A stretch of DNA of 64,000 nt from Sipunculus nudus. Taxonomy: Eukaryota > Annelida > Sipuncula > Golfingiida > Sipunculidae. The stretch's first letter is position 1, and every line of letters starts with the position of its first letter. Position numbers and translations under genes: made by a program. Of this stretch, positions 14,024-60,309 are shown piece after piece. Below the pieces are notes generated by a model that saw nothing but the letters and a program-made list of their open reading frames with translations, did no database searches and was not told the DNA's origin. The stretch covers positions 55,757,870-55,821,869 of the forward strand of contig CM049307.1 in the NCBI GenBank assembly GCA_026874595.1, read 5' to 3'.

Positions 14024-14663
14024 ATCAAAGGGACCGCCTGCAAACATGTGTAATTTATAAGGCCGTGGCCCCGCAGCGCAGAACGCCCAGGAATTCGTAC
14101 AAATTTCAAGGGAAAAGTAAGATGTTTTGTTGATAAATCCACAATATAAGTTTAGTGCACGCAAACTTATGCTCATCTTGTGGTTGGATACAAAATTTGT
14201 TCCCTAGATAGTGTTTTTGCGGTCACAATCACACACAGTTGCCTATAAAGAATCTAATTCTCCTTACCCGATTTTGTTTGTGCATAAGCTGTGATTAATC
14301 ATGGGTAGGCCGGCCATTATCAACGCGCCGAAAAGTATTTTTATTTAGTAGTGCGAGTTTATACTGATTGTTTATTATAATAAACAGTACAGGCATGTTT
14401 AATATTGATTACATCTATTAGCAGAAGGTGAAAAAACGTGTATATTGTCATATATATAAAGGTATGTACCCCTTCGAAAATAGACTCGACCGACATATTT
14501 TGCTTCCATGTCAATTGCTGCTCGACTATGATTGGCGCGGGCACTTCAGAGGCAGTGACGTCACGGTGTGTAGGGGTTGTCGGCGGCTGGCATGTGGCTT
14601 TGATGTTGGATTCAAACTTTTCAAATTTGTTAATACAAACCGACCCTTGAAGTGGAATCAAAG
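14024..14663. promoter_or_regulatory. TCF/LEF-type sites around the putative axin promoter
   Basis: Three TCF cores lie here: AGATCAAAGGG (core 14024..14030), GGCTTTGATG (core 14598..14604) and GAATCAAAGGG (core 14657..14663). The last two lie between the CRE and the proposed first-exon donor. TCF proteins with beta-catenin activate Wnt targets through such sites, and axin is a common Wnt target. Confidence 0.4.
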
Positions 14664-14681
14664 GGCAAGATAAAGACCAAT
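14451..14681 (+). promoter_or_regulatory. Candidate axin promoter (TATA, CCAAT, CRE)
   Basis: A TATATATAAA box lies at 14451..14460. An inverted CCAAT (ATTGG, 14531..14535) precedes a perfect palindromic CRE, TGACGTCA, at 14556..14563. Another CCAAT lies at 14677..14681. The stretch is CpG-richer than its surroundings. It sits about 240 bp upstream of a consensus donor and 5 kb upstream of the axin coding exon. The transcription start cannot be placed from sequence alone; the TATA box and the CpG-rich CCAAT/CRE part may belong to alternative starts. Confidence 0.4.
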
Positions 14682-14900
14682 GATATGATATTGGTAAGTT
14701 TCACTTGCTGGATATACTGTGCATTGGATTTACCGAACGCCAAGTGTGGGGAAACCGCCGTGCCCAGGTACCCGTTTGTAAGTTACTTTGTTGCAACTAT
14801 GTGTACATTTCAGCGACGCTGTAAACTGTTTGGCAACATGAATGAGATGGAGTTCTCGTAGCACGTTGTGTTTAAAGCTGAAAATATTCGTGGTGTTAAG
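14682..14900 (+). other. Candidate non-coding first exon of axin
   Basis: The segment ends in a perfect-looking donor, GTTAAG|GTAAGTA, at 14900/14901. It could splice to the acceptor at 19723/19724 that opens the axin coding exon. Its own start is unknown. Internal alternatives exist: donor-like TTG|GTAAGTTT near 14693 and an acceptor-like ACATTTCAG near 14813. Confidence 0.35.
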
Positions 14901-16727: not shown

Positions 16728-16903
16728 CAGTCTTGTTTATAAGGTACAACAACAAAGTACCTATTATTAACAGTATTGAAGAAGCCCAGTCTTGTTTATA
16801 AGGTACAACAACAAAGTACCTATTATTAACAGTATTGAAGAAGTCCAGTCTTGTTTATAAGGTACAACAACAAAGTACCTATTATTATAAGTATTTAAGA
16901 AAT
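16728..16903. repeat. 59 bp tandem repeat, three copies
   Basis: Units starting CAGTCTTGTTTATAAGGTAC begin at 16728, 16787 and 16846. The first two are nearly identical and the third decays at its 3' end. Each unit carries a small hairpin, AGGTAC...GTACCT, with a 9-base loop. Confidence 0.95.
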
Positions 16904-17849: not shown

Positions 17850-19723
17850 TACTTACCAAACTAACATGCTGATGTAATAACAGCAGACATAATTATTATA
17901 CATTGGTCGTTAATAAATAATGATACAGAACTAATGAATGACCATCTTTTTATTTTTTGTGATATTACATTTTCACTTTCGAGTTGATATTTCAAAATAT
18001 GCAATTGTATATTTGCAAAGAATATGTCATCAGCATCCATTTTATACTGTGCCTTTGAAGTTGTGTGTGTTATTTTTCCATGTGAAGATTGTTCATATCA
18101 GTGTTTTTGATACAAAGGGATCCGGCATAGCATTATTTACTTTATGTGGAAATGTAACCAGGTTAGATAAAATAAACAAGACGTTCCACACTGGGAGCTG
18201 CTATCACCAAGGAGAGACCTGTTATCCTTGTGAAAATACACTGTGTAATACTGTGTGTTCTCAGAATGAGCGCAAGCAAATATTGGTTGTTAATTTTTTC
18301 ACAAAGCCCTTTGAGATGAAAGGGCTCAGCTTCAGGGGAAAGGAAACGCCTAGCATCCGCCTCCTAGGGGTGTTTATTTGAGGAGGGGTGTTAATTTAAG
18401 CCTCTTCACAAGTCTTGTATTGTGGAGTTTTCTTTGTTTACCACTGTGGAACAGATACTTGTGTTGTAAATCTGACTTTGCCTGTAATATAAAGCATGCA
18501 CTGAAAATTGGGCTGTGACCTTGTTGGAGTTGGGTATTGATTTTAGCTGGGAATAGATGGGTAGATAATATTTTCTTAGCTGTACCAGTGGTTTGCGTGG
18601 CCTGCTTTCTGATACCCCAAAGGAGCCCCAGATATTTGCATAAAATCATGGCCGCCTCCTGGTCTGAAATTGATATGGGTCTTTGATCTTGGAAGAGCTC
18701 TTTGAATGACCAGGTCGCAACAGTTTTGTGGCTCCATGGCCGGGCCTGGTGAGTGATCACATGTAGAAGTCATTTGGGTGTATTTGTGGGCTATAACCCT
18801 AGCTCTAAGGCTGATTGCGGGCCAGCTCGGCCTTCAATTGATTCTGTTTTAGGACACAGCACATTGTGGATTGACCGGCCTGGCTTATTTGAATTTCAGT
18901 TGGGTTCGTGCTTTAGGCTGAGATATGTGTGTTTATTCGGCCTGCCCTCCCTTCACATGTTAGTCAAGATCAAGGAACACCACAGCAGGCTATGTATTTA
19001 CTGGCCCAAGCTTCACGATCAGGCTTTTAATTGCTGTGGAGGGAGACCCTCCAAATTTTATTATGTCTGTTTGTCAAATGACGCTGAAACTGAAAGACAC
19101 CCATTGAATTTCTTTGCAAATGTGGAATGTTCTGTGCAATCTGTGAGGTGAACAGGTCCCAGTTAATCTGAAAATTGCGGTTTTTGTGGATTTACCAGGA
19201 AAATTGGTTCGTGCATACGCCATTATGGCCTCATGGTAGGGTTTATGTGTGAGGTACCAGAGGTGAGTGATAATAGAGGATGTTTGCCTTATTGAAGCTT
19301 TATCATTCAATATTAATGTTATCTTTGTTCTCAGGTTATTTCCTATATTGAAGGAGTATTCTTGGTCTTTTTGATTCTTTACTTATTAAACACATTTCCC
19401 AGATGCAATATTATACATGTATTATTTGGCAAGGGGTATCTTTTTGTATTTTCAAAGTTTTATTCCTTAGTGCCTCAGTGCAAATAGGTGATCACAGACT
19501 TTTATAATAGCTCCCCCCCCCCCCTTCCATAATTTTAATCAAACTTGTCTGTGTTTTAGCTGATAAGTCATTTGTTAAAAACATTTACTAATTTATATAC
19601 TGACATTTATGATTTTATGCATTGATTTATGATTCGCTTGTGGTTATAAAATTGAGGTTATTATTTTATGTTGATACAAGATTATAACCTGAACCTTTGT
19701 ACATATAAATTTGCATATTTCAG

Positions 19724-19799
19724 GTTTCCTCTACACATCAAAGCCAACATGTGATGCTAGGCCAACAGAGCATAAGACTTGGGTGCACCACAGGAGAAA
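19724..19799 (+). other. axin: axin 5' untranslated part of the first coding exon
   Basis: An acceptor, TTTGCATATTTCAG, ends at 19723. The following 76 bases carry an in-frame TAA at 19773..19775, so translation cannot begin upstream in this exon. A TCF core (ATCAAAG, 19737..19743) also lies here. Confidence 0.65.
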
Positions 19800-20776
19800 A
19801 TGAGTATTGAAGTACACCAGTTCTTGAATGACGCCTCGGGAAACTTCACAGAAACCGCACCGCGTCCTCCCGTGCCAGGGGAGGAGAACGAACTCCAGTC
19901 CAATGGCGGCGCTTCCACGCGCAGTAGTGGATCTCACAAGAGCCACATTTCAGGAAAAAGTCATTCATCTGGGAAAAGCGGGGGCTCACATCGTACGGAC
20001 CTCAGCCATTCCCCGGCGGCTACACCCAGGCGCTCAAACCTGGATAAAACGAGCACTTCACTCAGTGGCTCCCTCAAGGGGCTCGATGAGGACGCTATGG
20101 TGGCGCCACTGGGCTTTGAGCCCGAGGGGAGTGCGGCTAGCTCTCCCCCATTTACAGAAAACACAACACCAGCCTACCTAAAGTGGGCTGAAAATCTCAA
20201 TAACCTCTTGGAGGATAGCGATGGGGTAAAATTATTTCGCCAGTTCCTTGACCAGGAGGCTTGTGCTAATGTTTTGGATTTCTGGTTTGCTTGCCGTGGA
20301 TTAAAAATGGTGGGGCCAAATGATAAGGCCAAAATTCAGCATCTCATTAAACTAATCTATAGGAAATACATCAGGGACCAGTTGAATCTCAAACCAGAGA
20401 TTAAGAAAGCCATTGCAGAGAAAATGAGTCGAAAAGAGGGTGTGGACCAGCACATTTTCGATGAAGCTCATGCTGAGGTGGAGAGGACTTTGCGGAATGA
20501 TTCATACCCGTTGTTTATTAAATGTGAGCTGTATGTGCAATATGTTGAAGCAGGTGGTGAGAGTCCTAAGACAAGTCACTCCTCTAGTGGGTCCAATAGT
20601 GTACGACCTGTAACAGGGCAGTTGCCTCCTTTAATTGAAGGAGAGGAATTAAAATCGGAGGATATACACTTTGCAAAGCCTCAGCCACCTACGCTGGCAC
20701 TAACAAAATCGGCTTTAGCAGCAACATCCGCATCCAGGGCACAAATGAGTATACGGCGGCCTGAGTCATGTGCTGG
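19800..20776 (+). CDS. axin: Axin, first coding exon (tankyrase motif and RGS domain)
   Basis: Axin is the scaffold of the beta-catenin destruction complex in the Wnt pathway. The exon encodes residues 1-325 plus two bases of codon 326. The ATG at 19800 (A at -3) is the first after an in-frame stop; a TTG 21 bases upstream is not credible. An N-terminal tankyrase-binding motif, RPPVPGEE, is at residues 22-29. A His/Ser/Gly-rich linker follows, then TPRRSNLD (75-82) and LGFEPEGSA (104-112). An RGS domain, which binds APC SAMP repeats in the family, spans about 126-250: YLKWAENLNNLL, LDFWFACRG, IYRKYI, FDEAHAEV and SYPLFIKCELYVQYVE. The ESPK after the domain also matches vertebrate axins. The donor is GCTGG|GTAGGT and leaves phase 2, which fits the next exon. 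Confidence 0.97.
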
Positions 20777-23700
20777 GTAGGTATCACAGTGTATATACAT
20801 ATATATATCCGTATATCTAGTGTATAACATAGGAATGATCAACAAATGTGTTGTCAAACTGTTATTTTCTATAATTGTATGTAACAGGGAACTGGTGCTT
20901 TGCTAAAGGTAAGTGTCAGTCTGTTTCAGCTTTCAACCATGTGCATCCAAATTACTGGTTAGTATATGTGTATTATTTTATTTCAGGTACATACATGTGT
21001 ATCCAAACCTCACTTCGAGGTGTTCACAGTGAAATGTTTCATGGGTAGTGGAAATGTGTAGAATTCAGAACCAAGATTGAGGCTGCAACCAAACCACAAA
21101 AAGCCCCCTTTGATGTATGAAATGTGGAAATAGCTCAAGTTAACACATTGGTAACATATGTTAGTGTTCAGTGGTTACATGAATCAGTAAATTTAGGAAT
21201 GGAATTTGGGACTGGGATCTATATATGGTTGCTTTTAGTGTCTTTAGAATGATGCATCCGCAGGGTTGCCATAAGAACAACATATATAATATAGTTTGTC
21301 TTCTGGTGTCTTCTCAACAAGTTGTTGTTTTGCGGTACAGGTAGTAATTGATTGTTCAGTTCTGTTTGTAGATCCAAAATGCAGAAAGCAAGGTCAAGTT
21401 ATTTCAGTTCAGGAGTCCTAGTGGACTACAACATGGCTGCTTCGTGGTACTGCTAGTACCAAAGGCTGGTGAAATTCTAATATTCTGTGCTGATTAACAT
21501 TGGGAATAAATAAAAACAAGAAACCAAATGACAACTCAACCATGCACTTATGCTTATTAATATGAATAGATTTATGTAGTTTATTTTATGAAGGCACAAA
21601 GTCCCTAATAAAGTGTCTAGGACATAAACACGGCTTCCATCATTATTATTATTGCAGTATTAGTATTATTAATATTATCAGCTGATAAATTACTGAAACC
21701 AAGGAGTAGAGGTTTTTTCACATCTTAATTGTTTTGTTCTTTCTTGAGGTAGCTTTTTGGATCTGTTTGCTTGCGTATTGCTGGTAGCAGTGTTTTGGGA
21801 TACATTTTTGAGCTATCTCTGTCACTAATGTTGTGTCCAGAACATTGTTTATCATCAGAAATAGGATTTGGCCTGAAGGATTTGGCAGAAGTTAAAAAAC
21901 CTTCAGTACCAATGAAAGAAATTTTGAATGTTTGACAAGCAGGTTGGTTGGTAGAAGCAAATGAGATAAAAACAATAGATCACATGGGGGAAACAAGCTC
22001 AGTTCCATCACATCATATCAGGACATTACTGTCATTATGGACTAGAGTCAAAACAGAATTATTAATTAAGCCATTACAGGTTTTATTTTCCACATAATTT
22101 AACAATTTGGCATCCATTGCCATGTTTTATGAGTGCATTAACCATTGAAAACAATGAGCAATTAAATGATGTGGTCAGACCGCTCCCTTTGAACTTCACG
22201 AGAAACACTGCAGATCATCCATCCCATATTTTATGCATGTAGCACATCAGGCTCGGCTTCTAGTGGATGCACATAAAACTGCGTCAGTTCACATGCCTTG
22301 GAGGGCATGTTGTAACAGATTATATCAATTTTGAAGCAATGACATAATTGTTTGTGGAGACATGACAGTTCTATATGATTAAGGGGGCTCTATTTCTGAG
22401 ATTGCACCATGAGATTCCAGGTGGGCATATACAGCGTTTTTATGTTATTTCGCTGTTTTTCAGTCACCTTGACAGAGCTACTCCTGTTAAACTGACCTTG
22501 GTTTTGGACACTAGGTGAGAAGAAACAGGCAAAGACCCCCCACCATCCACAATCAGATAACACGTTACTTGTGAATCCAGCTGAACTTTTTGTGTTTGCC
22601 ATAGTACTGAAGTACAGACATGTTCTGTGGCCTGGGGCACGAAGGACAAACAAATGCTTGATGGGAAATATGTGATATGGAACTCGTAACTCATTGAATG
22701 TTTACCTTGCATTGTTCCAAGGTCAGCCTAAAAGCAGATGAGACCAATCACACATACACTATAACATGACAAGCATTTTAGCTGATACCATAGATCATCA
22801 AGAACATCACATGGTGTCCATGTTCCCCGTACAGAGAGGGTATAGTTGCTATTATTATATTTTGTGTCCACTCCAAGGCTTGTAATGCCGGGCCCGAACA
22901 CTGATTATCATTTTATGTGATGGGTTAGGACCCCAACCCTTAAATTAGGGTTGAAATGGGAACCAAATTTAGAACTTGGGCACTATAGGCATTACCTGAC
23001 TGGACTCTAATTCTCATTGGCATCGTAGCCATGGGAACACTGTTAAGTCTTTACAAAAGCTTTAAATGGACATCTTTTTACTAACGTGATATGTGTGTAA
23101 AGTTTAATAGGTGATGGCTTTACTTGGATATGAACAGAATTAAAAAATCCACCCTGAAAGCATTAATTCCTTGAACTAAGCCCCTTCAGTTCAAAACCAG
23201 GTGTATAAATATATAAGGTATAACATAAACTCAGTTAGTTTCCATAAATAATCAGGTATTTGTGCATGCACACAAAAGTTAAAACCCCCTTCACCAGCAC
23301 CACCAACCTGACCTCCAATATCGGCCCCTGTAGTGATATTCATCGCAAAGCATATAGCCTATTTAAAGCCTTATAACTGTAATCATCAATATAACCACAT
23401 GTATGATAGTTTATACATGTATAATGGATTTACTAGAAATTATACCAGAACCAGTGAAGCTGTTAGCTTTTAGGAGTCAAAACTAAAAGCAGTGCATAGT
23501 AAAAGCTTTTCAGTTTAATCATGAAAATGATTTAGGTGAACAGAATAATCATTTGTGGGTTCTAGTAATCATCCAATGTGCACTAGAATTAAGGAAAAGT
23601 GGCATTTTAGTGATATATTTTTATATGGAATCTCATATTTTATTTAGCGTCTAGATATATGTCACATGTCAATCTGAGTTTTAAAAATATATATAATTTT

Positions 23701-26700
23701 TGAGGAAACATCTGTACTTGAACATTCAAACTCAAGCATCCAGGTTCACATTTCATATCAGTGTCTTTGGGTTTAAAATTTTCACACACAACCCAGACCT
23801 GCTCATGTTCATGTTATACTAACATTATGGGCAAGCCAACTCCAGAAGGGGCAATGTGTGGGCTATACATTAACAAGCTGAGGTGATACTGCAAGACTGT
23901 ACCAGCTGTGAAGAAATAGTTGACCTGACCGCAGGGTGTAGTGGAGGGAATGGACTCCCTGACAAGTCCTGCTGGGATTTTGCCAAGTCTGATAATACAG
24001 TCTAGTAACCAGTTCTCCAGTGGGTGTGTTTTTATTTAATGGTAATATTTACTGTGCTGTCTCCTTTGATATTACAGATTCTGGTCGCTTTGCATTATTC
24101 AGGATCAGCTATGTAGTGCTTTGTTGATCTGTAGCGGCCTGACAAATCCACAGAGCTCTCCTTTATTATTGATACATGTAATGTCTTTTACAGTTCCATA
24201 GGGTTATTTGTAGTCTAAAGGCATAGAAAAGCTTTCATATAAGAAGTGCAGTTCAAAATGAATTCCTGTACTTGCAAGTCTGACAGTTCCATTTATCAGC
24301 CCAACATAACTTGCATAGCAATAGTCAGTAAAAAGACCAAGCCCAGGATTAACTGTTGGTCAAAAGCTAGGGTGGCTCCAGTGACAGCAGTGTTTCAGCC
24401 TGTGAAGTGCACACAGAGAGGGCAACATTTGCTATTCTTTGTGTTCAGAAAATTGATATAATCCATGGAGACAGCGACTCCTTGATTCCTTGTTTGGCTC
24501 CCTAACTTTGTTTTCCTAATGAGGAACAATAAATCATTTAATTCTAAACACAGCTTTATCTCTTCTGACTGTTGCCCACGGAAACAGACTTTGGCTAATA
24601 GCATGAGACAAATGATGGCGACTTTGATTTTCGAAGGTTTAACAATAGATCAAGGAAATCGGCTGAGCTGCACGTAATGCCATCCTTTAATTTTCAAAGA
24701 TTGGAATTTGATTAATTGACCATTATTTCACCATGTGGATTTATAAATTTATGAGTGTGACTGATCTTGAGAAAAAAAACAGGATCAGATAATCATGCAA
24801 CTATGGATTTGAATGAAAAATTACACAGTTATGTCATGGCAGAACTGTAGAAGCTTTTTAATCAGTTCTTGTATTTATGGAAAGAATGTATTTTGTAAAA
24901 GCCATGTTTACTTGATAACAGACCTGTATTTCAGCAATTCAATGCTAAGGTCATTCACCAATAAGGTTAGGCCACAGAAGGTCTATGTTTATTAAATAAT
25001 ATTAAATAAAATCTCTGAATTTAGCTAAATTTTACATACTTAATAGCACAGTTCAGTCAAATATAGCAAATATGATCATCTGTTGGGATAGGAAAAAGAT
25101 TATTTCAGCCACAGAGAGGCACTGGTGTCATGCAGATACTTGCAACAAGAAAAACATCGCAAGGATAGCATAAGAAATAACAGCAGAAATATGGTACTTA
25201 GGTTACTAAGGTAGTTGACTAGTTGTCATAAATGGATGGTCAACAGAGGATTTTATTCTTTGCACCTAGAGAGAGCCCAAGTCACCAAGCATACTGAACA
25301 AAAATTTGCTATGCATTATGAAGTGTCACCCCTCTAATGTTGGAGAAAACTTAATTTTTCTCTTCAAAGGATTAGTTTCATTGTATTTGACAGCTTCTAT
25401 GAATTCTCAAAAAAAGGTATGAATAAAATCAAAGGGAATGTGTTTTAAGTATATATTATGCAAGAAAGTGAGCCCATGCATTCACAATTTATGATAGAAA
25501 AAAAAATATAAAAATGTAGGCAGGTCTGTACCATGAAAGTGTTCAATACACGTTTAGACAAATTCTGAGTGTGCTTGGAGAGGGGTCTGTTCATAGGTAC
25601 TGAAGCATAAGCCCACACGGGATTGGGTGTAAAAATCAATCCTCAGGTATTCATTGTTCAGTAACAGTTGGTATTTACATGCAGCTAGGAGGGGCAGTGT
25701 ATTCATCAACCCGCTAGTGTGTATTGTCAAGTGCTCCACCAGCTGTATTTTCCTTAGCCTGTGGGTGATTTCACATTAACATTAATGCTGACAAAACATG
25801 CATGGACAGTCAAATTTCATGCCTCAAATGGATAATTCTGTCAAACTATTCCAGAAATACTCCTTCATCTGTGACAAAACATTCACTTTGATTTAAGTGA
25901 TAAATTATAAAACTTAATATTATGTCAAGATTATGTAAAAGTGTGCAAACATTGGGGGAAAAAGTTGATTTTGCTTGCATATATAGCACATATATAGATT
26001 TGTAATTATTGAAATGATTTTTTTTATAAATTGTCAATGGATAATACTGAGAATATAGAATTGAGAAAGTAATTTGTTTATTAAGATAATTGAAAATAAG
26101 TGAATAATTAATCTTCCCTTAAGAGTCTCTTGAAACAGGATTATGAGATTTAGCACAGGGAGGGTGACTCGAGCTTAATCAGTCCGTGGCATTGTCGAAT
26201 AAAATTCAGCCCCGAACTTGCATTCACCACCAGGGAATAAAACTAAAGAATAGATTCTTTGAAATACCCTTCATCAAATAGAACTAGTACAAGCATTTAC
26301 AGGAACTGTGATGGATATTAAACATGGGATCCATTTCACGTCTCTCAAGTCTTGGATGGTTAATTGTGCACTGGGATCATAATCCAGTTTATGTTGAGAT
26401 GAGGCAGTCCATATTTTGAATCAGTGTTTGATCAGGCGTCTGCAGTGTGATTTATACAGGAGTTGTTGAAAGATCTGTAATCATTTATACCAATCCCTGT
26501 GTCATGGGAGTTCATTTAACAAGGGCTTAATACTCTGGAGTGCCTGGAAATAGAGGAGTTTCATGTGGTGCATGTTTGTCGTTACATGGATGATGATGAG
26601 GTTTTATGTCTCAGGGTTTTGTTTTCACTGGCTCCACAAGTCTGTGTGGAACACTTGAATTTAGGGTGTAAACTGCACAGTGCCAGGGGAAGCAAAACCG

Positions 26701-26919: not shown

Positions 26920-27479
26920 ATCAAAGGACATGGAGTGTCGTAAATGGGAAACATGCATTCCGCAAATTGTCATTGTGTTATGTTGCACTGATCTTAAAGG
27001 GTAAGCTAGTGTTCCTGGCCCTCAGAGCTTTCCCTTGTTTAGCATTGTTCTGCTTATGGCAGTTGGCCTATCTTCACAGCTGCCTACCACTTTGGGCCCA
27101 CTGGTCTGTAATTACGGGGATATTTTAACTGTGTAATTGTTGGTTTTTCGCAGTGGGGCCATGTGAAGCCGATAGTCGCACACCAACAGACTAGAAGAGC
27201 GCCATTTGTTTTGCAAGATCCTATCATTTTCCTTCCACCAATGGTATTTAACATCAAACGAGGGTTCCGCCACAGTTGGGTAGTTTTTATCAAAGGGGCC
27301 TGTGTTGCTTTGTGAGCCCTTTGCAGAAAGACTCTACATGTGAATAGGGGGCCCTTTGGTGACTGCCGCCAATTGCTGGCTTCTTTGATCCCGTGGTACT
27401 TGTTGCCTACTTTACATCTGATTGTTATTACAGCATGAGTTGGCGGACTCAAAGAGACCGGCTGGGGCTGTGCTTTGAT
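26920..27479. promoter_or_regulatory. TCF/LEF-site cluster, four cores in 560 bp
   Basis: Cores lie at 26920..26926 (AAGATCAAAGGA), 27289..27295 (TTATCAAAGGGG), 27383..27389 (TTCTTTGATCCC) and 27473..27479 (TGCTTTGATAAG). The surrounding 26.5-27.7 kb is GC-richer than the intron average and not repetitive, as expected of an intronic enhancer. Confidence 0.5.
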
Positions 27480-31039: not shown

Positions 31040-34000
31040 CTTATAATATATTTCAAGAAAATGTTTCCATGCATTGATCTGAAAATTTTTATGATCATTA
31101 TAGCTGTTAAACTAAAAAATAGCAGTCATCTGTAGAGTACTATTATTTAATTAGAAAAGCAATAATGAATTGTGCTTTTGACCATAAAATTTGAATGTCA
31201 AATTATCCCAAATTATCCATATTCTTGCAAATTTTTAACAAGATTTGTCCAGAGATTTCAAGAATATATATATTAAAAAAAATTCAGTGCAGATGGTCCA
31301 TTTTAAATGTTTTTACATTAATTTCCTCCTGCTTTTAATGCTGATTTTTATGTAGTTTGTTTGCATGTGCTCCTGTATAAAGATAGCTCAGTATGTTATA
31401 ATCTTTTAATGACCTTTAAAACCTTGAAATCCTTGTTCAGGTATTTTTAATGGAACATATTTACACAAGTGGGAGGGTCAAATCTTCAGGTTTCAACCAA
31501 TACAGCCATCAAAACCAGCTAGCTTTTTAATTTTGCTTAACTGTGTGCTTAACAGCTTTAATGTATAATATATTCAAAGTCAGCAGTTGAGAATGTGTTT
31601 ATTAAGAAATTATACGCATAAGATAATCACAGCAACATTTGAAAATGGTAGCATAGTGTATATTATTATATTATATTTGTATTAATATAAAGGTATGATA
31701 AAGGTTATAACGTCACTGTCAATGAGACTGTCACAGTAAATTTACAACAATGACAGGTGAGAAAGAGATATATAGGTAGCATAAAATATATCTCCCTGTT
31801 CAGATGAGCCAAAGGAAAACCACGGCCAGGACCTATGGACTTGTTAAATGCACTAGGTGTACAAATAGGCCTGCAGAAACTATCGCAAAGAAACCTTCAA
31901 CATGGCGCCCTCTTAATTCCAATCGTGGCTTGCTACAATGGCTGTAGGGGATAATGCTGCTGTACGAGGAGCATCATACATCTTGCTCCAGTGGAACGCC
32001 AACAGATGTTGGTCTAAGGATGAGGTGTAGGCAGTGGCCAGTCCCTCGTGGGTTCTAACTTGTGTTTTGCCTGCATCACAGACTGCCGGCTTTTTGTGCA
32101 GAAGTCCTTGCTATGGTAGAAAGAGACCCAATGGGAGAGGCGGTATGACCTAAAACCTAAAGTGTGCCCGGGTCTCATGGCCCTTTATGGAACCTATTTA
32201 TAGTGGGGCCATTGATATTTCATGTTTACACTTGGTACTTAAGAGCTGTGCAAAAGGGGCCTCATTTCCAAGCCTACAGGGAAAGAGGGCTGGTACCGGG
32301 ATCTTAATGCACTTGGTCGGATTAGATTGTTCCATGTTATCATGGGAACCTATTGTAACCCAGGCATGAATAGGCAGCCAATGATGCAGTTAAGGATGTC
32401 CGGGTCACTCATCAATACAGGACTATCCAGAAATGTACTGTTGGCAAGGTCTCGGACAGACACACCATGTGTCTACATGACCAGCAACATGTACTCTAAC
32501 ATAATGTCAACAAACATGCCGCATGAAGGTCTGCCGCTAGGTCATGATACCAAGATAATCCACAGTCTGTCATGTGTTCATTTTGTAGTTTTTCCCCCAG
32601 CCTGCTGCTACACAGAATTGTGGTTGGGCTGCAGGTGTTAACTGCTCCAAATTGGTCTCACGTGGACACTAACATTCAAGTCATACACACATAAGCAAAA
32701 TGGAGAGGCCAGTTCCCCTGTTGTATGGTGTTGAAAATAAACATTTCCCCATAGAGCAGCTTCCAATATACATGAACTATATTAAATATGCAATATATAA
32801 AAATCAAATGTTAATTTTATCCTCAGCAAAGAAATGTTGATCAAACTTCATTAGTCAGTCTAGAGTGAGTTGAATATGTAATGCTATATAGATTTATAGA
32901 GCGGTTGCAAAGCTTAAATATATTGGATTTTAATTGTAGTAATCGGACCAAATAAGCACAACTTCTTTTAAATTACTCAAGTTATATGCATGTTACATTT
33001 GAAATATCAAACTTAATATGTAAATTTGTCATGAAAATTTTGCATTGGAATTTTTCACATAGCCAGCCTTTTACATGTAGTATACTTGGACAAGCTACCA
33101 TTGAGCAGACCTTTCAAAGGGGATTGATACTGTATTTTATCTGGATCATTCATTGGGTGAGGTTTGGTAATACCTATATATACCTATCATATAATGGCTG
33201 TGGCATTTTGCTGTATATGTGATCAATTCCACCTGATATTTCCCACTTAGATAAGGTTAAAGAATGATATCCTGATCTTTGTCAGGTGCTCTTCCTTTCA
33301 GCAGGAGGAAATGAAACCATCTCAGTCAAAGAACTTGGTGGTAAGCTTCACAAAATAGGTACCAGCTGCCAGGTATTGCTGGTACCCAGTCCACCCTCTG
33401 TTCTTGCGCTCTAGATGGCCCCATATTACAGGAAGGGGAAATGCCTTTTGGCCTAGATGGCTTTGGATATTGCTTCTCTGCTAGAGCAAGGGTTTTTGCC
33501 AGCATGCCCAATCAGTGATTTGATCACAGGTGACAGCAGCTTTGCATGATGAATGGGGCTTGGTCACCTTAGAAGCAAACCTGTCCAATACGGGCAGCCA
33601 TCATGGGCAGCCATCATGGTCAGATCGGCTGATGTTGTCACAAACGAATATGTTTTTTTGACTTCATCAGTATGGATGGGGGACGGGCCAAAGAGGGTGG
33701 AGAAAAGTTTGGTGACTTGTTAGAGGCTCTGGAGGCTAGTGTTAGCTTGTGGTCATATCTTGCGTAGCTGTAGCTATTGTGAACATTCTGTGTTCTTGAG
33801 ACAGATAGGTTTGTGCTACATCAAAGGGTCTGGCAAATGCGTGTGTTGAGTAACCAAGAATAATACAAGGCATGTAAGGCCAGAAAAACAGACTAATCTA
33901 AATTCTTGTCTTTCATGCCAAGTGAGGACAGAAGAAGTACATTTAAGAGGAGCCTAACTGCTCCGTGGAGAGGCTTTATCAGTTTGGGGAGTTGGGGACA

Positions 34001-42407: not shown

Positions 42408-42551
42408 GTTGTACTTACAAGGTGGTGCTCGCAATTTAAACCCTTACCATGTTTCCTACGCACCCGTTTCAACGCAAGACACCACAGAAGTGCAGAGTTT
42501 GTCCAGCGACCAACTCACTGATGATACCATGTCCCTCACAGACAGCAGTGT
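42408..42551 (+). CDS. axin: Axin, exon encoding the NPYHV and SLTDSSVDG segment
   Basis: One leading base completes Gly326. The exon then encodes 47 residues (327-373) and two bases of codon 374. NPYHV, the acidic-serine stretch QSLSSDQLTDDT and MSLTDSSV correspond to vertebrate axin (NPYYVN...SLSSDADTLSLTDSSVDG), the region between the RGS domain and the GSK3-binding helix. The acceptor is CTTTTGCAG and the donor AGTGT|GTAAGT. Entry phase matches the RGS exon and exit phase matches 55298, so no exon is missing in this chain. No catalytic function; this is a flexible, probably phosphorylated linker. Confidence 0.95.
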
Positions 42552-45500
42552 GTAAGTACTTCACATTTCTTGCTGGTGCTTTTCTGTTCCAGCGGGGGAG
42601 CCAGCAACTACTGGGCTGTCAAGAGTGTTGAGATTTACAGCGAGCAAACAAATTGAGTAATTACTTGTACTTGCTTTGGTCTCTGTGGTGTTATCATAGT
42701 TAAAGTTTTACTGAGGGCAATTACAGAATGCCAAAGCCTGTGTTCTCTCAGATGCCTTTTTTTTACGTTCTCTCCGTTAGGCATTCCAGCATCGGAGCAT
42801 CCGCTGTCTTTCAGGCTTTGAGAGAGAAAAATGACAGGTGAATTATTTAGGTCAGGGTGAATACAGGTTTTTGGATCACTCTTACAGCTAGAATGCAGCT
42901 AAATGTCAATGGTCTGCCCAAGTTGTTTTGTAGTAGTATTATAGAGTTTTTTATTAATAAATAAGTATGTTTTATGTTAAAGATTGCTTCTTCTTCAGAC
43001 ATGATATTGAATTTGTCATAAACAGAAATTTGTTATCAAAATTACAGTAGAGCTGCCTTATTCAGATCTCTTTTTGGATTCTTATTTGAGGAGCTGTGTT
43101 ATTAACAAAAGAGGATAGGTAATCAATAGGGGAAGCTCTACCATTATAGAGATGATACCATCTATTCAGGAGTTACTATAAGCATGAGTTCTGTTATTAT
43201 TTTGAATCTGTTAAAGTATGAGAGCCATTTTCAACAAAATGGAATTCACACCAAGTGAGATTATTTATTGTTTCCCATCAACAGTGAAATTGACATTGAG
43301 TTTATTATCTTAATAATCCTTAATAATCAAATTAACATTTATGAAGCAAATTAGATTAAACATTTACTGAGTTCCAGAGAATAATAATTGAGTTCAGTAG
43401 AAATTGATGCATATATAATACTTGAATGTTTAACTATTTGTATTCTTGAATGGCAATATGATATTAAATTAAGGTCATTTCAGATCAGGATACAGTAGAA
43501 ATGATATCACATTTTGCGGATGTGGTGTTATGTCATGAAAGAACTTAATTTGATTTAAGTAGGAAAAACCACTTAATGCAAACCGCATGTTAAGATAGAA
43601 AAGAGCACATCCTCAGATATAACCCAGTTCCCTGATAATAACAGTGTGGTTCAGTGTCATGTGCAGAAGGGGGTTATCTTCAAGTTCAGTGGCCCAGCAC
43701 ACCTGCTGAAATGTATGTGATTTTACACAGTGTTGGGGGAAAGAAACCAGTCTGCTGATATCCAAACATATCATCATAAACTGCCCACAGGAATTAGTGT
43801 CACATGTCTCATGACTCCTAGTCTGAGGTAATAAAACCAAATTCATGGTTTCTGACAAAGAACACTGCCATCTCAGTTGTGGTTATCAGGGAGATGCACA
43901 GCAAGAGCAACTTTTTTGGTCCGGCAGTTGCTAACTTTGATGTTTTATGGACCTCCCTGCATGTGTGTAGATCTCCTGGAATACGGATGTTGAGTTTTGG
44001 CAGATGCAACAGACATAAAAGAATGGCTTGACATCCTGGTATTAGTGGCATATCTATGACCGTTTTTAGCTGTGACACTTTGAATTATCTGTATCTGTTT
44101 ATGGATCTTTCATAGTATGACATATGTCACGTACTATTTTGAAATAGCAGATATTTTTTTTTATGATTTCTCCCTTATGCATACCTGGATATATCAAACC
44201 TTTCTTAAAACTGACAGGATTCATACAAAAATATTAGCTGAAGTTTTTTTTAGATATTTTATTGTATTATAACTTAATTTTCAGCTTGCTTGGAATTAGA
44301 TTAAGCTTTGAGTGTCATCACAACTTTGTCTTCCCTTGTATATTATGCATGTACAACAGAACCGTGTAACAAATCAGACCTCCAAAATATCTTTTGTTTT
44401 CAGGGAGCATATACATAATATATCTAGGACACTGATTTTTGTTTCCATTTTGTTGGTTTATAGTATGAGGTTTTTCGGTGATGCTCAGTCTTTCAGGGCT
44501 GTGTTGGTGATTTTTGCGTTACTTTTAGTGGTCTGACTTTCCATACAGCCTGCTATCTGGTAAGATTGTGTATCCGAGGTTTCTGTAACTAGCAGTCTTG
44601 CAGGCAAGCAATGTTTATGTTGATGGCGAGTGCTAAGGATATTGGCTAACTGCACAAACCTGGGCACTGTGTCTGTGAGCTATTGAAACACAGGACTGGG
44701 GCCAAGTAGCAAGAACAGTACCACTGTTTAGGAGTAGCTAGCTTGATTTGTAGGTATAAGCGAATCCAAACACATGCTGACCATCACAGCGGGGATGGCT
44801 ACATCGTTTCCAACCAACACCCGTTCCCTTAAGTCCAGTTATGTGTGCACATCATTCCTTGTATTCTCAATTCTCTTGGCATTGTGGCAACTGGGTTAAT
44901 TCAGAAAACTGGCTACCCATGGCCAGTTTGGTAAAATGGTACGGAACCCACATCAGTAGGTTTGGGGTACTTGGGATGTCAGAATGCCTGGTGGTTTACT
45001 TCACAGGTTTACCAGCCTGCCCCTACATCTTAGCACCAGGGCCCTCATACCCCATGATCAAAGGGAGGATCCGGTTTCGTTAGCGGGGCACTCCGGCAGT
45101 GTATTTGTGGGCATAAATCCTTTTGGTACTCCTTAGAAAAGGCCATCAACAGTTGTTGCAGGCCTAGAGTTGGGAGGTTGAGCTTCCATGCTGGCTGGGC
45201 CTTGAGGGCTGTGCTGGTTTTGTGGTGGTGTTGCTTGCTGGTCTTGCTGCTGCTTGTACAGTGCAGGAACCTTCAACACAGTGCTGGACAGTCAATACTC
45301 TGACAGCCATCCTTTGTGAAGCCACCTTACCGCTGGCACTTACAGGACTGCTTGATAGCAGGTGTACCAGTAGCACCCACAGCCAATGGAAACCCTATAT
45401 GTTTTCACAGCTTTACTCCAGAGGATTGTTTTATGCACTGTCCAAAGCAATCATTCATCGCGAGCTCATTGTAGCTATAGGGTCTTTAACAGCTGAAGGC

Positions 45501-47337: not shown

Positions 47338-48547
47338 TATTGGATTTTCGCCATGTTGTTAGTCATTATATAAATCCTTCCTTGCATTCCTAACCAATCC
47401 CCACATTTATCTGTACCATTGTTATACAGTGGCATGAATGCCTTTACAAGGTTTGTGACAGTTTGTCTCCAGTTTGTCCAGTGATCTTTGATTAGAACTG
47501 CAGCATTTGGTCCGGTCTACTATTCATACAAGGCTTCGTAGCCATAATAACATGCCTTGGTATGGCTTCATTTTAATTTGTATACTCATATAGGGCTTCC
47601 TTGTTGATCGTGGGACAATACACTGGTGCACGGCAAATACAGGCACAAGTTGCCGCTGGCTGTATGGCAGGATCTAATAGCGGCAAGATGAAAGAGCACA
47701 AATCCAGTGGTGGTTTGTGGGACTGATTTAGGGGCCTCGATCCATGAATGCTGGCTATTGTTCATGCTAGCTCTCTCAGGCATGATTTTTGGCACCCATG
47801 TTAGAGTCACCTCTAGTCCTGTTTTGATTTTGTGTTAACACAGAGGTCATACATTTTCGGTGTCTCCTATCTTTGCAGAGACAGCCTCAGTTATTGTTCA
47901 TCTGTGCTGACCCTGAGGGCCTTGTTGTAGTTTACATTATGTTGATTCAAATTGTATTTCCACATATGGGTGCAAACATACAGAAATATTTCCCAGCTCT
48001 CCCTGCGGATACTTGTATTGAATCTGTGTCTTTTTTATTTTTATTGATACCACATTTTCAGTACCCAAACCCAGCTGTGTGTACATTTTGGGTATTTTTT
48101 TCTCATACATGTATCAAACAATTCACATGTTATTTGGTGAAAGTGTGGGAAAACCTGACAGTTCACATGTTCCTGTATAGGATGGTAAAACAGGAGAAAT
48201 TTGGACAAAAACTGCAGAATTATGTTGTTACCATGCTAACATCTGTTATCACTGGCCCTTCAAGTACAGCTAAGTGCTTATGCAAATCTGTTCATTCAGA
48301 GATCGTCAGCTATAATCTGACGTGACTTCAAAGAGTTACCCCGCTCCAGCGATGATAACACAGCGTTGAAGGGTTCCTAATATCTTGATGAAGGGGGATA
48401 TCCACAGTAAGAGTAGCTTTTGAGAGATATTTTCCTGGCTGCTTGTGCATGTGGTGGCCGCTCTGTTGTGCATGGGTACCAGGCATGTTAAACCAGAAGG
48501 AAACTGGCATCCCCCACACCAGTCAAAAGGCTACACAGCCAAGGCCC

Positions 48548-49977
48548 ATCAAAGAACCAGGTTTTGTTATGCAAAAAAAGGCACACACACAGGGAAAAGA
48601 GATAGAGCCCTTTGATTTGCTGTATCAATAGATACAGACTGATTGAGTGAACAGATGGGCCACAACATAGAGGTGACATCTTGCCCCATGCGATCCCCGC
48701 AGCTCTTTGATGTTGATTGGTTCTGTGGCCAGTGCAATGTCATGCCAGCCACATGGTGAAGAGGGTCTCCCACTTATCTCCCTCTCCATTCCCTGGCAAG
48801 ACTTCAAAGGCCTCTCCCTGTCCAAGGCTCCCTCTCTCATATCGTGTTTACTCCTGGCTGTGTTCTGCTGCTTGTTTGTAACTTGTGGCGCTATGGGGCC
48901 TCTCCTGGGTGTGTGCAAAACAAATGGCCCGAATGAAAGCTTGCATCATGAGACATGTCTTCAGTGTCAAGAGCCTGGTCATCAGCAAGATTTATTCTGG
49001 ATGCCTCACGGGGATGATCACAGATACATGTTCTCACTGGTCATCTAATATGCAAGGTATGCCTGATTTTTGTGATGTACGTCATTGATAAATACTAACA
49101 TGATAGGGTCTTCACTGCATCATTTATGTGTCTCGAATATGTCGAGTTTCACTGTGTAGTTTGTGTTGCGAATAAAAAAATGGCAAATGTAAGGTTATAA
49201 CTTCTCTTCAAAATTTCATTTTTCCTGAAAATCATTATGGTTAATTGGATAGCCTTATTGCTGGCCCAAATTGTTTTCTGTGTCATTGTGAATTAATGTG
49301 CAGTGCCATTTTTGGAGCTTGAGTACCCCCGAAAAATGGCCGAGTGGTGCATTTTGGAGTTCAAATATTCAAGCAGCCCCATATCAAGGCAGCATTAGTG
49401 GTGTTTTTTTGTGCCTCTGTGCCGACTGCACATTGGACGATATTTCAACACAATTTGGGAACGTCTGGTCACAGTGCCAGGAGTGGCCATTAAGGGTTGC
49501 CATGTCAACAAGGGGGATTTGGATAAGGTGCCGCACTGCTGTGCTTTAAATGTGAAGAGAATATTTAATCGCAAAGACCGGCAGCTGTACCGAAAATCTC
49601 TCCCAAGAAGGCCATCCACAGTAAACCTATTTTGGTATTCCGGGGATTGTGAATATTGTTTTACCTGGTCGGTGTAACAACTGCTCCGCCAAGTGCATGG
49701 TTGTATGAGCTTCTGGCCTCCTCAGTTTGACAGGAACTACCCCATACATCAACACAAATGAAGTTTACCCAACAATTACGGCTGGTGATTTTGTGTGGCA
49801 GAGGGCCAATATGGCTATGTTGATACAGCGGCTATCATTGTAAAGATGTGGCCCACTTTGATGTGATTGGAAAGATCAAAGGGACCTCAGCCTCCGTGCC
49901 TGCTAAACTGCCCCATCCAAGCTAATGTGTTGGTGTGGGGCTGAAAGCTTGATTAACTCTCATTGGCAGACTTTGAT
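48548..49977. promoter_or_regulatory. TCF/LEF-site cluster, six cores in 1.4 kb
   Basis: Cores lie at 48548 (CCATCAAAGAA), 48610 (CCCTTTGATTT), 48705 (CTCTTTGATGT), 49856 (CACTTTGATGT), 49875 (AGATCAAAGGG) and 49971 (GACTTTGATCAT). The 49856 and 49875 sites face each other 19 bp apart. The host block, about 47.45-50.35 kb, is unique and GC-richer than the intron average. Confidence 0.5.
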
Positions 49978-51194: not shown

Positions 51195-51311
51195 AAATCC
51201 TGTTTGGTGGACTTTAGATATTCTACCCAGGACACCAGTCAGTCATTATATCATTACAAGATTAATAAAAATATAAAATCAAAATTCATTTATTGAATTT
51301 ATACTTTCAAA

Positions 51312-51948
51312 ATCAAAGGTATTGATTCATAAGATGCAAGAATGTAAGACCACAGTTGTGATAGTTTGTCGATCAGTCACTAGATGGCAGCACTGGTTGC
51401 TGGCTGAGTATCTGCAGGCTGCCACATCAAAGACTTTTCCAGTGTGAGCGGTATCATATCATGCTAATTATGTGGTTATTCCTCCTCATCAGCAGTGCTG
51501 TGTGGTGCAGATATTCAACCCAGCCCTTGGGTGGCAGGTGCAGCAAAAACATAGTCAGAGGGGACTTTATGCTAGAAGAGACATGCAGGACTTTCTTGCT
51601 GGGCAGGGTTTTCCCTGTGTCATTTGTTCTACCTTGACACATGGCTTTAAATTACATAGGGAGCCTGGCTTTCTTTGATCCTCAGTGCAGCCCAGCAGTA
51701 ATTAATCAAAGAAATTAAAGGAACATGTAATCTTTTGTAAGGCAGTACAATAAGGCATTGAAGCTGCCCAGTCAGGCTGCAGCAGATACAGGCTGGCTTT
51801 GAAGCAGTAACTTTGTTGTTGCCAATAATATAATCTAGCGCATATTGGAATTATTAATGGTAATAACCCGCTGGAAATAGGGATTTTGTGTGTTGCCTTT
51901 TATGTTTTGAACAGGCTCATTAAAAGCTTTGTTGTGGAGACATCAAAG
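51312..51948. promoter_or_regulatory. TCF/LEF-site cluster, five cores in 640 bp
   Basis: Cores lie at 51312 (AATCAAAGG), 51426 (ACATCAAAGAC), 51673 (TTCTTTGATCC), 51708 (TAATCAAAGAA) and 51942 (ACATCAAAGGC). A CTCF-like motif (51376..51391) lies among them. Confidence 0.5.
51376..51391 (+). promoter_or_regulatory. CTCF-like site
   Basis: GTCACTAGATGGCAGC matches the CTCF core CASYAGRKGGC with no mismatch in that core. It lies inside a TCF-site cluster. Not tested. Confidence 0.3.
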
Positions 51949-53813: not shown

Positions 53814-53871
53814 CTTTGATGCATGGCCTAGCCATTTAAAGCAAACAGCGGCGTCACTTTCAAGATCAAAG
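53814..53871. promoter_or_regulatory. Paired TCF/LEF-type sites
   Basis: CTCTTTGATGC (core 53814..53820) and AAGATCAAAGATG (core 53865..53871) lie 51 bp apart in opposite orientation. Confidence 0.4.
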
Positions 53872-54997: not shown

Positions 54998-55144
54998 CTT
55001 TGATGTGTTCAGCGCGGGGCCTTTGATCGTTCATGGGATCAACACACTTTGAAGTACACTGCATAAACAAAGGGCTAGACTCTATAGGCAGATTACCCTC
55101 GACTCTTTGATGAGCAGCGGTGGATAGCTGCTCCGCACTTTGAT
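54998..55144 (-). promoter_or_regulatory. Densest TCF/LEF-site cluster, four cores in 147 bp
   Basis: GGCTTTGATGT (54998..55004), GCCTTTGATCG (55021..55027), CTCTTTGATGA (55105..55111) and CACTTTGATCAC (55138..55144) all point the same way. A related CACTTTGAAG lies at 55045. The cluster ends 153 bp upstream of an axin exon, in a non-repetitive block. Confidence 0.6.
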
Positions 55145-56620: not shown

Positions 56621-56749
56621 CGCACTGATCGAGCTCCGAAAGATCGCAACATAGCCGAGACGGATCCCCCAAAGTTTGCGGAGATGTTGATAAAGAGGCT
56701 GGAGAAAGTGGTGGAGGACCAGCAGAGAACAGACAGGTTGAACGAAATG
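56621..56749 (+). CDS. axin: Axin, GSK3-binding exon
   Basis: The exon encodes exactly 43 codons (residues 412-454), phase 0 at both ends, with acceptor TTTGCAG and donor GAAATG|GTAGGC. It contains KFAEMLIKRLEKVV (429-442), which matches the human GSK3-interaction helix KFAEELIHRLEAVQ. The hydrophobic residues spaced as Phe430, Leu434, Leu438 and Val441 are kept; the leucines are known to be essential for GSK3 binding in vertebrate axin. This segment lets axin bring GSK3 to beta-catenin. The following acidic-basic stretch continues as a helix into the next exon (FAEEEEQ). Being a symmetric exon, it could be skipped without a frameshift, which would remove GSK3 binding. Confidence 0.97.
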
Positions 56750-57059: not shown

Positions 57060-57905
57060 ATATTTTTGGGACAGACATGAACCATGGAAGGACTTTATAT
57101 TCACAAAACTCTTTGAGGGGCAGACATGATCCATGGAAGGACTTTATATCCACATAACTTTCTTGAGGGGCAGACATGATCCATGGAAGGACTTTATATC
57201 CACAAAACTTTCTTGAGTGGCAGACATGATCTATGGAAGGACTTTATATCCACAAAACTTTCTTGAGTGGCAGACATGATCCATGGAAGGACTTTATATC
57301 CACAAAACTTTCTTGACGGGCGAACATGATCCATTGAATAACTTCATCCACAAAATTTTCTTGAGGGGCAGACATGATCCATTGAAGGACTCTATCTACA
57401 AAACTTTCTTGAGGGGCAGACATGATCCATGGAAGGACTTTATATCCACAAAACATTCTTGTGGGGCAGACATGATCCATAGAAGGACTTTATATCCACT
57501 TAACTTTCTTGAGGGGCAGACATGATCCATGGAAGGACTTTATATCCACAAAACATTCTTGTGGGGCAGACATGATCCATGGAAGGACTTTATATCCACA
57601 AAACATTCTTGTGGGGCAGACATGATCCATGGAAGGACTTTATATCCACAAAACTTTCTTGAGTGGCAGACATGATCTATGGAAGGACTTTATATCCACA
57701 AAACTTTCTTGACGGGCGATCATGATCCATTGAATAACTTCATCCACAAAACTTTCTTGAGGGGCAGACATGATCCATTGAAGGACTCTATCTACAAAAC
57801 TTTCTTGAGGGGCAGACATGATCCATTGAAGGACTGTATCCACAAAACCTTTTTGAGGGGCAGACATGAGCTATGGAAGGACTATATCAACAAAACTTTT
57901 TTAAT
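57060..57905. repeat. Minisatellite, ~50 bp units, about 17 copies
   Basis: The unit is GGGGCAGACATGATCCATGG, then AAGGACTTTATATCCACAAA and ACTTTCTTGA: 50 bp, with shorter variants (about 44-47 bp) missing bases around TTTATAT. A block of variant units, marked by GACGGGCG and ATTGAATAACTTCATCC, occurs twice with a 397 bp offset (57314 and 57711), so part of the array grew by larger-scale duplication. Confidence 0.95.
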
Positions 57906-59196
57906 GACAGCTTTGAGCCAGGGAAGGAATTGTTAAAGTTTTGTGCATCTCGAGAGAAAATGGCTGTTCCAACTGGGTCACTTGGCTTTCTACTGAATGC
58001 CCTATGGGTACTTTTATGGGTAGCTCAGTTTTAGTCTTTCAGTGTACAGTGAATACAAGATATCTCAGAATCAGAAGTGGTATTACCAGAAGGCAGGAAT
58101 TGAGTAAAAGGATGTTTACTTGACATTTATTTGCATAATTGTATGTAACAGAAGTTCTCAAGGATGGGTCACTTTACTATGGTTCCATAGCTGGTCATGG
58201 CTACCTCCTTGGGAAAGATGAGATCTAGTTTCTTACTGAAAAAGCACCATAGTTCAGCTAGGTTGTGACAGGGGCACTGTAGTTACTACCTGGCCGAAGT
58301 TTGTAAGATTTTCTGCCCTTAGTAAGATTTTATAGTGAAATCAAAAGGGTACCTATTGGTGTGCATTAACTTCCAGGTTTAATGAAAAAAATAGCTGTTG
58401 GAAAAATACCACGTTGAAAAATAAAATTAAAAAAAAAAAACTAAATTTGCTTTTAACTAGTTATACTGAATGGATAATGATTCATTATTATTTGCTTGAA
58501 TTACATTATCATTTGGCAGGTGATGCACGAAATCAGATAAGTTTCAAGGAAAACTTTATAAATTTCACAAAAAAGGTTAATACATTGAGAGTAAAATTGG
58601 CAATATTATGGAATTATTTTGACTCCCAAGTGTCATCTTCAGTGTGAACCTGTCACAAAGTGTGTTCATGAGAAAAATTAATATGTTAGTTATAGATGGT
58701 CAAATTGGGTAGGTCTGGTATGATCTGACAGACATCACCAACACCCATGTCTCCTGACATGGGGGCAGATTTTCAGCTCCGGCATTATGCTTTCAGCCCA
58801 TCAACTCTTCATATCACTTTTCCCAACTGTCCACCATATCTTAGGCAGGTCGAGGAGTTATCAAACTTTTCCCTTTTATGTATGCTATGTCATTAATTCC
58901 TATCAAGCGATTGATTGATCAGATTGTTCAAAGGCCCCAGGCGACTTGTTCATTCTGTGGTCCCAAACCTTGGGGAAGAACGTCAAAAGAAGAGGGCAGA
59001 GTGATTGCATTACCCAAGATTCAAGTCTTGATAGGTTTGGCTTGTTTGATTGTCATCTGCATGCCAAAACTGACACGTGAAATACGTCGCGTTTGAAAGG
59101 GGGATGAGGATCCTGAAGCCCCCTGTCAATTTGTCCTGCCACATTGGACTGTCTCTGCTGATGAAAAACTATTGCAGGGTAATGCTAGCCAGCCGT

Positions 59197-60309
59197 CTTT
59201 GATGCAGAGGGGCTTTATAAGCCTTTATGACATGTAGTATAATCATAACTGAAAGAACATCAAAGGGCATGCGATCAGGTGTTGACACGGATTGATTTTT
59301 CCATATCCCCACATCAAAGGGCCAGCCTGTGTAGTCAGACCTCCAATTTAATTAGTAAATTGTCTGTGGCCATCGCTGGTCGTGCTGCTTGTGATCCCGT
59401 CACTTTGTGCCAGACAAAGTGAGGCCAAAACTTTTCCCAAGCGACCCGCTCCCCTGATTAGGTTTTGATAGAAGGGGCCCCGGCTTTGTCACAGCGCTGC
59501 CACAGAATAAGCAGCGCTGCAGATCAAACACACATCAGTGTCGCTCGCTGCAGCATTTCAAGGAAGACATGCAGCCGTGAGTTTATCAGCAGAAATTGCT
59601 GGCCTGACAGTTTGAATATTGATGGGGTTAAGACATTGCGGCACCTTTTCGTTCTCTGATACCTTCTCATGTGAAGTGAAGGCAGAAGGTGACATGATCA
59701 CTGCAACAGCCAGCTATTGACTCCCGAGCAGATCAGCAAATTTATATTTTATCTGCCAACACGGTACTGACAAGACAGCTTGATTATTGACAAGGGACCT
59801 GGATCAACGGGCCAGCATGGTGGCTGCCACGGTCATAGCCAGCACCAATCCTGTTAACTGTGAACTTCACTAGGGGATTGTTAAGTTAATACACTTGTGC
59901 TTTAACTATGGGAGTAAAGCTGCATTGATTTAGCAGCATACCAGACGCAGCCCAGGTGTTGTAAGCGGACGGAACTGGGAAAAGAAGGGGAAACACCATC
60001 ACTGCTGCCACCTCAAGATATGATGGACACTGTCGACTGTTTTGCGTGCATGATGGTTTGTTTTATCTCGTTATGTGATCCAGTGTTTTATTTTGTTTGT
60101 TTTTTTGTTAAAAACTTGGGTATCACTTGTTAGGCTTCATTTAACTTGCCGAAAGACTTGATTGATTGAAACTAGGATCCCTTCCCTGAAAGGCAATTGT
60201 TAAATATCCATTGTCAGCCATGTTCTTGCCCAATGCAAAACCAAATCACTCGTTCTTTCATCCACGCCAGATCTACTAATGTTGTAGAAACATCTCCGGT
60301 AGATCAAAG
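59197..60309. promoter_or_regulatory. TCF/LEF-site cluster
   Basis: Cores lie at 59197 (GTCTTTGATGC), 59269 (ACATCAAAGGG), 59313 (ACATCAAAGGG) and 60303 (AGATCAAAGGC). The first three fall within 123 bp. The block is unique and GC-richer than the AT-rich sequence to its left. Confidence 0.45.

Follow-up and report, generated by a model that had tools for sequence, protein, structure and literature searches.

TCF/LEF-type site clusters in the introns and upstream flank of the Sipunculus nudus axin gene: candidate elements of Wnt negative feedback

The axin gene of Sipunculus nudus

The 64-kb stretch of Sipunculus nudus DNA considered here (C2:55757870-55821869, in a genome of 1.43 Gb), which we call the window, contains on its plus strand a gene for axin, which acts as a brake on Wnt signalling, and much of this gene is rich in the TCF/LEF-type core ATCAAAG/CTTTGAT. 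The gene is identified by RGS, beta-catenin-binding and DIX regions that follow one another in this order on a single strand. The first coding exon that we found (approximately 19722..20780; its limits, like those of all the exons given here, were read by eye) encodes a tankyrase-binding region and an RGS domain, matched in Pfam by AXIN1_TNKS_BD (E 2.3e-8) and RGS (E 1e-23), and the best PDB matches of this RGS exon are axin RGS chains. It has an ATG at 19800, a donor near 20776 and an acceptor-like AG near 19722, and the position of this AG ahead of the exon suggests that a non-coding exon lies further upstream. A probable exon at 42400..42552 (plus strand, 5' limit approximate), reading ...SLSSDQLTDDTMSLTDSSV, appears to resemble axin. 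A probable GSK3-binding-region exon occupies approximately 56621..56747 on the plus strand; its top PDB match is Axin-1 (8vmg), at a weak E of 0.11, and a Pfam search with it gave no match. The exon with the beta-catenin-binding motif is at 60957..61724 on the plus strand (Pfam Axin_b-cat_bind, E 3.6e-14), and the two DIX halves are matched in exons on the same strand at C2:55828801-55830910, 7-9 kb past the window end; the coding sequence finishes at about 73,053 in window numbering.

A DIX search of the genome gave four matches at three loci, namely axin and two others, which we presume to be dvl (C15) and a dixdc1-like gene (C17), and only at axin does one of the nine RGS matches in the genome cover the whole domain, the others being partial. 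Given one full RGS domain and DIX matches at three loci, axin is thus likely to be single-copy in this genome. A match to the Notum family (PAE) was also located in the genome.

Number, specificity and arrangement of the cores

There are exactly 45 cores in the window (25 CTTTGAT and 20 ATCAAAG), as against 13.3 expected from base composition and 16.7, 15.1 and 16.1 expected from Markov models of orders 1, 2 and 3; orders 4 and 5, both of which increasingly contain the motif itself, predict 24.3 and 37.0. A preliminary description of this DNA had reported about 45 cores where 10-15 would be expected, and its count is confirmed. An approximate TCF/LEF matrix, made for this analysis and applied at three rising cut-offs, gave 69, 49 and 32 matches in the window, compared with 25.3, 14.9 and 7.3 (+/- 3.1, maximum 14) in dinucleotide shuffles, 60 in number, that were made block by block and so matched locally in composition. 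The remarks of the preliminary description on stronger forms of the core, GC-richer surroundings and the scarcity of cores in repeats are likewise borne out: counting both strands, ATCAAAGG accounts for 18 of the 45 cores and CTTTGATC for 12, the GC content within 200 bp of the sites is 0.427 compared with 0.378 for the window, and none of the 45 lies inside a tandem array. Judged within the window, without an outside control, ATCAAAG is not the most extreme word, ranking 19th of 7,730 7-mers by order-1 z-score, and 5th when one count is allowed per 300 bp and order 2 is the reference.

The control drawn from the same genome amounts to 234 kb and consists of 12 random 10-kb blocks (out of 72 drawn), 40 kb upstream, the first 14 kb of the window and a 30-kb stretch apiece from the other two loci with DIX matches, placed on the side where the gene is expected from the domain order; the 30 kb downstream, which contain a minisatellite, and the loci brought in by searches were excluded. 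The core-rich tract runs on past the window as far as axin itself does, and the axin tract was taken as 14,001-73,100 in window numbering (59.1 kb, of which the last 9.1 kb lie outside the window), with its upper bound near the coding end; these bounds were chosen after the sites had been seen, and p-values for axin are therefore optimistic. It contains 52 cores compared with 44 in the 234 kb (4.6-fold, p = 2e-13), and the test on the whole window, which is independent of the tract bounds though prompted by the preliminary description, gives 45 cores where 12.0 are predicted from the control (p = 2.8e-13). When axin is divided into six blocks, each of about 10 kb, the core counts are 6, 9, 4, 15, 8 and 10, as against 0-5 in 23 control blocks (mean 1.91, variance 1.81, and so Poisson-like; Mann-Whitney p = 1.4e-4). 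Within the control, the cores number 20 in the 120 kb of random blocks, 12 in the 40 kb upstream, three in the window's first 14 kb, and three and six in the two DIX loci (9 in 60 kb). For matrix matches, the ratio of axin to the random blocks increases as the cut-off is raised, the values per 10 kb being 12.5 versus 4.5, 9.6 versus 3.25 and 6.4 versus 1.1. Among the stretches sampled, core density peaks over axin, without a sharp cut at the gene ends.

The excess is motif-specific. When all words in axin were ranked against a 174-kb control without the DIX loci, each 250-bp bin counting once, ATCAAAG came 2nd of 8,189 7-mers (38 versus 35 bins; p = 9.6e-7, which passes the Bonferroni line of 6.1e-6), and the top 8-mers of 30,921 were CATCAAAG (1st), ACATCAAA and ATCAAAGG. 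Only two of the 21 single-base variants of ATCAAAG are enriched over the 234 kb at p < 0.01: ATCAAAC (23 versus 45, 2.0-fold, p = 0.006) and TTCAAAG (32 versus 62, 2.0-fold, p = 0.0012), the latter fitting the TCF form reported as CTTTGWW (PMC4267635). A SOX explanation was rejected, since SOX-like AACAAAG shows no enrichment (axin 19, control 55 in 234 kb, 1.36-fold, p = 0.15). Enrichment over the control also varies with the neighbouring bases, being 7.9-fold for CATCAAAG, 6.9-fold for GATCAAAG, 3.5-fold for AATCAAAG and 1.4-fold for TATCAAAG, and in a second series 5.6-fold for ATCAAAGG, 4.8-fold for ATCAAAGA, 3.7-fold for ATCAAAGT and 2.9-fold for ATCAAAGC. In sequence terms this gradient follows TCF preference and matches SCTTTGATS, described as the high-affinity TCF consensus (PMC3916239), the value for ATCAAAGC not fitting a simple G/C flank rule; the flank tests, and those on Helper sites and co-motifs described below, were picked after the flanks had been looked at. 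When 400-bp segments were sorted by GC content, cores per 10 kb in axin and control were 10.0 versus 2.1 at GC 0.35-0.40, 10.5 versus 1.6 at 0.40-0.45 and 20.8 versus 2.3 above 0.45, or 4.7-, 6.7- and 9.2-fold. An explanation by GC content is disfavoured by the persistence of the excess in these matched strata above 35%.

The cores are also clumped. Between 14 and 61 kb, 15 gaps between neighbours are shorter than 100 bp where 3.5 are expected, a number reached in none of 5,000 simulations; extra clumping is absent from this interval at the 1,000-bp scale, and the clumping lies below 150 bp. Groups with three cores or more number eight in the window (at 14.0-14.7, 26.9-27.5, 39.2-39.5, 48.5-48.7, 49.9-50.0, 51.3-51.9, 55.0-55.1 and 59.2-59.3 kb), together with three pairs. 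The unevenness noted in the preliminary description thus stands and its count of seven groups was close; its placing of the sites in introns and promoter needs some correction, the promoter being putative, three of the 45 cores (2137, 3421 and 8220) lying upstream at background density and the core at 19737 belonging to the 5' leader in the exon that encodes the RGS domain. Clustered SCTTTGATS-type HMG sites above background, one of the features by which a Wnt-responsive cis-regulatory module (W-CRM) is recognized, are present, with 19 of the 52 axin cores matching in full.

The RGS exon is preceded by a TCF-type group of three cores (14024, 14598 and 14657; 14024..14663) and by a single core GATCAAAG at 18681..18687 on the minus strand. 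A single core lies in the intron following the RGS exon (21108..21114, minus strand), and beyond it are two loose pairs at 24064..25892 (24064 and 24622; 25428 and 25886) and a group of four with a GC content of 0.46 (26920, 27289, 27383 and 27473; 26920..27479). Groups of three follow at 39186..39540, at 48548..48711 (in 164 bp, GC 0.49) and at 49856..49977 (in 122 bp), interspersed with single cores at 33820..33826 (plus strand), 43935..43941 (minus), 45057..45063 (GATCAAAGG, plus) and 47486..47492 (minus). Five cores are found in 637 bp at 51312..51948 and two in 58 bp at 53814..53871. The tightest group, at 54998..55144 on the minus strand, has four exact cores in 147 bp in one orientation, two of which (54998 and 55021) show the full SCTTTGATS; three more are grouped in 123 bp at 59197..59319, and the last core in the window is a single GATCAAAGG at 60303..60309 (plus strand).

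Two arrangements of paired cores were looked for throughout the genome, both selected, once their numbers in axin were known, among 21 classes of orientation and gap; none of the 21 classes is present in the 234-kb control. Inverted pairs of the form CTTTGAT-N30-60-ATCAAAG number 537 genome-wide, compared with 162 for a reversed-letter control, and axin has three where 0.022 would be expected, the pair 14598/14657 being one of the 537. For same-orientation pairs with a distance of 90-120 bp the genome total is 6,331, a figure inflated by tandem arrays, and axin has five versus 0.26 expected.

A feedback reading and its rivals

We consider it probable that the introns and upstream flank of axin hold several short Wnt-responsive clusters through which the gene would exert negative feedback. 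TCF at these clusters would hold axin low in the absence of signal; nuclear beta-catenin, acting with TCF at the same clusters, would raise axin transcription, and with the extra axin the destruction complex would be restored and beta-catenin brought down again. The preliminary description had likewise seen the sites as feedback enhancers, a view that is supported in part. The density on which it depends exceeds that of shuffled sequence and, 4.6-fold, that of the control stretches taken from this genome, among them those at the other DIX loci; TCF binding, enhancer activity, the response to Wnt, the effect on feedback and the promoter are predictions.

Several observations weigh against this reading. 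The full SCTTTGATS, with G or C on both sides, is found in only 19 of 52 axin cores, and two sets of control cores have it in 8 of 34 and 4 of 11 cases. In the word ranking ATCAAAG is outranked among 7-mers by AGCCAGC (17 versus 4 bins, 11-fold), the top 8-mer CATCAAAG (p = 2.3e-6) falls just short of its Bonferroni line of 1.6e-6, and CTTTGA is merely 5th of 2,080 6-mers, short of its own line. Stretches below 35% GC have no excess, with two cores in 18.4 kb, and there is no sharp edge to the tract, both the 40 kb upstream (12 cores) and the 30 kb downstream (11 cores outside the minisatellite) being richer than the random blocks (20 in 120 kb). The comparison is with random blocks, flanking DNA and the two DIX loci rather than with introns of enhancer-rich developmental genes. 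Outside the locus, a search for a TCF gene by its CTNNB1_binding domain came back empty, a result that is uninformative given the nature of the search, and the axin response in the annelid Platynereis dumerilii is described as partial and stage-dependent, being mild to Wnt inhibitors and absent to the activator at one stage (PMC5996498).

The composition of the control bears directly on one rival, in which axin introns are merely rich in enhancers with many inputs and TCF sites come along with the rest, as at any other developmental regulator, with no feedback particular to axin. Such a situation would be compatible with the enrichment of other words, CCAGCA and AGCAGC as well as AGCCAGC, with the confinement of the excess to sequence above 35% GC, and with a control sample that contains no developmental-gene introns of this type. 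We nevertheless judge it unlikely, given that just TTCAAAG and ATCAAAC of the 21 variants stand out, that the excess reaches 4.7- to 9.2-fold in GC-matched stretches above 35%, and that the two other DIX loci show none. A second possibility, that local sequence bias or a dispersed core-carrying repeat has multiplied within axin, takes its plausibility from the tandem arrays of ATCAAAG that exist elsewhere in the genome, one of them about 10 kb downstream of axin, and we regard it as very unlikely: no core of the 45 lies in an array, 53 of 56 site contexts (307 bp) have no similar sequence in the sampled DNA and in the other three the match misses the site, the flanks vary from one site to another, and most single-base variants do not rise. 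The sites might also be silencers or a sink, with bound TCF repressing axin or the array titrating TCF. Invertebrate TCF is reported to repress its targets without signal (PMC5464219, PMC3916239), and GCCGCC Helper sites are not clearly enriched near the cores, at three within 50 bp versus 0.8 expected (p = 0.048, several motifs having been tried). Helper-like GCC is nonetheless enriched on the 3' side of the core, and some 50 sites per haploid genome would seem too few to titrate TCF; we regard this alternative too as very unlikely.

The Helper site is given as GCCRAnW in the worm (PMC3916239) and as GCCGCCR in the fly, and is described as needed for activation in reporters of both. Within 20 nt 3' of ATCAAAG, GCC occurs at 20 of the 52 sites versus 11.1 expected (13 versus 10.8 on the 5' side) and GGC at 18 versus 11.1 (12 versus 10.9 on the 5' side), while 20 of the 52 have GCCAG/CTGGC at a distance of 50 bp or less, versus 7.4 in GC-matched sequence; all of these comparisons are post hoc. 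AGCCAGC, whose enrichment in the axin tract is the highest of any 7-mer, lies outside the exons found and is a possible partner motif; in the window it occurs at 27375, 33061, 34796, 42599, 45190, 47655, 47750, 51399, 51792, 54005, 59187, 59708, 59837 and 60849. The Axin2 enhancer CREAX is reported to work via TCF, CDX and 'CAG' sites (PMC9771724).

The array downstream of axin (C2:55840739-55844092), which begins some 10 kb past the 3' end of the gene's last exon, is a minisatellite of 72 units of 44 bp, 30 of which have an intact ATCAAAG core. The idea that it is a natural TCF array was rejected: identity averages 86% in the core columns versus 80% in the rest, yet 92% is attained by a different stretch of 7 columns and one base of the core is at only 62%, with no selection visible. 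Because its core is not specially conserved and ATCAAAG arrays occur elsewhere, we treat it as probably incidental. Three further ATCAAAG arrays with periods of about 37-41 bp lie at C1:1888027-1888992, C1:3534377-3535049 and C1:6262398 to at least 6267524, and among the matches listed, which cover the first 6.3 Mb of C1, most same-orientation pairs belong to these three. The introns of axin contain two minisatellites without TCF cores, at 29762-30946 (180 bp, 6.7 copies) and 57068-57899 (50 bp, 16.9 copies). Within the gene there is also a 200-bp direct repeat, 90% identical and 11.4 kb apart (50997-51196 and 62425-62624), which is probably a dispersed element.

Relation to known feedback systems

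The feedback role of Axin2 is reportedly to be credited to Jho 2002, Lustig 2002 and Leung 2002, and that of the CREAX enhancer to Ramakrishnan 2021; to our knowledge, Wnt induction has been shown for just one of the two vertebrate axin genes. Axin feedback is thus of a kind already known, from vertebrate Axin2 and in part from Platynereis, and the gene described here is an unusually site-rich case. Vertebrate Axin2 (conductin) is described as a Wnt feedback target (PMC5996498, PMC9771724, PMC12315713), and like it the Sipunculus gene is an axin with TCF sites, although switching by Wnt/beta-catenin has been shown for Axin2 and is predicted here; unlike the vertebrate case, there is apparently a single axin gene, with about 50 cores over some 59 kb. 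A second parallel is axin of Platynereis, reported as most probably the one axin gene of another lophotrochozoan and as a putative Wnt target (PMC5996498). The Drosophila naked cuticle gene offers a further parallel, since it inhibits Wnt by feedback and has at least two Wnt-responsive modules (the W-CRMs nkdIntE and nkdUpE2; PMC4154663), such modules being predicted for axin. It is of course a different gene, and axin differs in having four exact cores (two of them full SCTTTGATS) in 147 bp and in showing no clear GCCGCC Helper pairing. No TCF-site map of an invertebrate axin gene was found in the titles and abstracts searched, a scope outside which most subscription papers fall.

A bolder version of the feedback reading, which we offer as a rather unlikely extension, is that single-copy axin acts as a gene-wide Wnt sensor. 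Its approximately 50 cores, 19 of them full SCTTTGATS, would form semi-redundant clusters, the reporter-like clump of four in 147 bp among them, that provide feedback in many Wnt-active tissues from this one locus, and AGCCAGC or GCCAG might serve as a lineage-special Helper or CAG-like site.

In summary, this comparison of one window of invertebrate DNA with control stretches from the animal's own genome illustrates how a plausible Wnt target can be indicated from sequence alone. If the proposed feedback is true, each of the axin clusters can be tested separately. And if an invertebrate with a single axin gene wires this feedback through many intronic TCF clusters, then the loop probably predates the split of the vertebrate axin genes.

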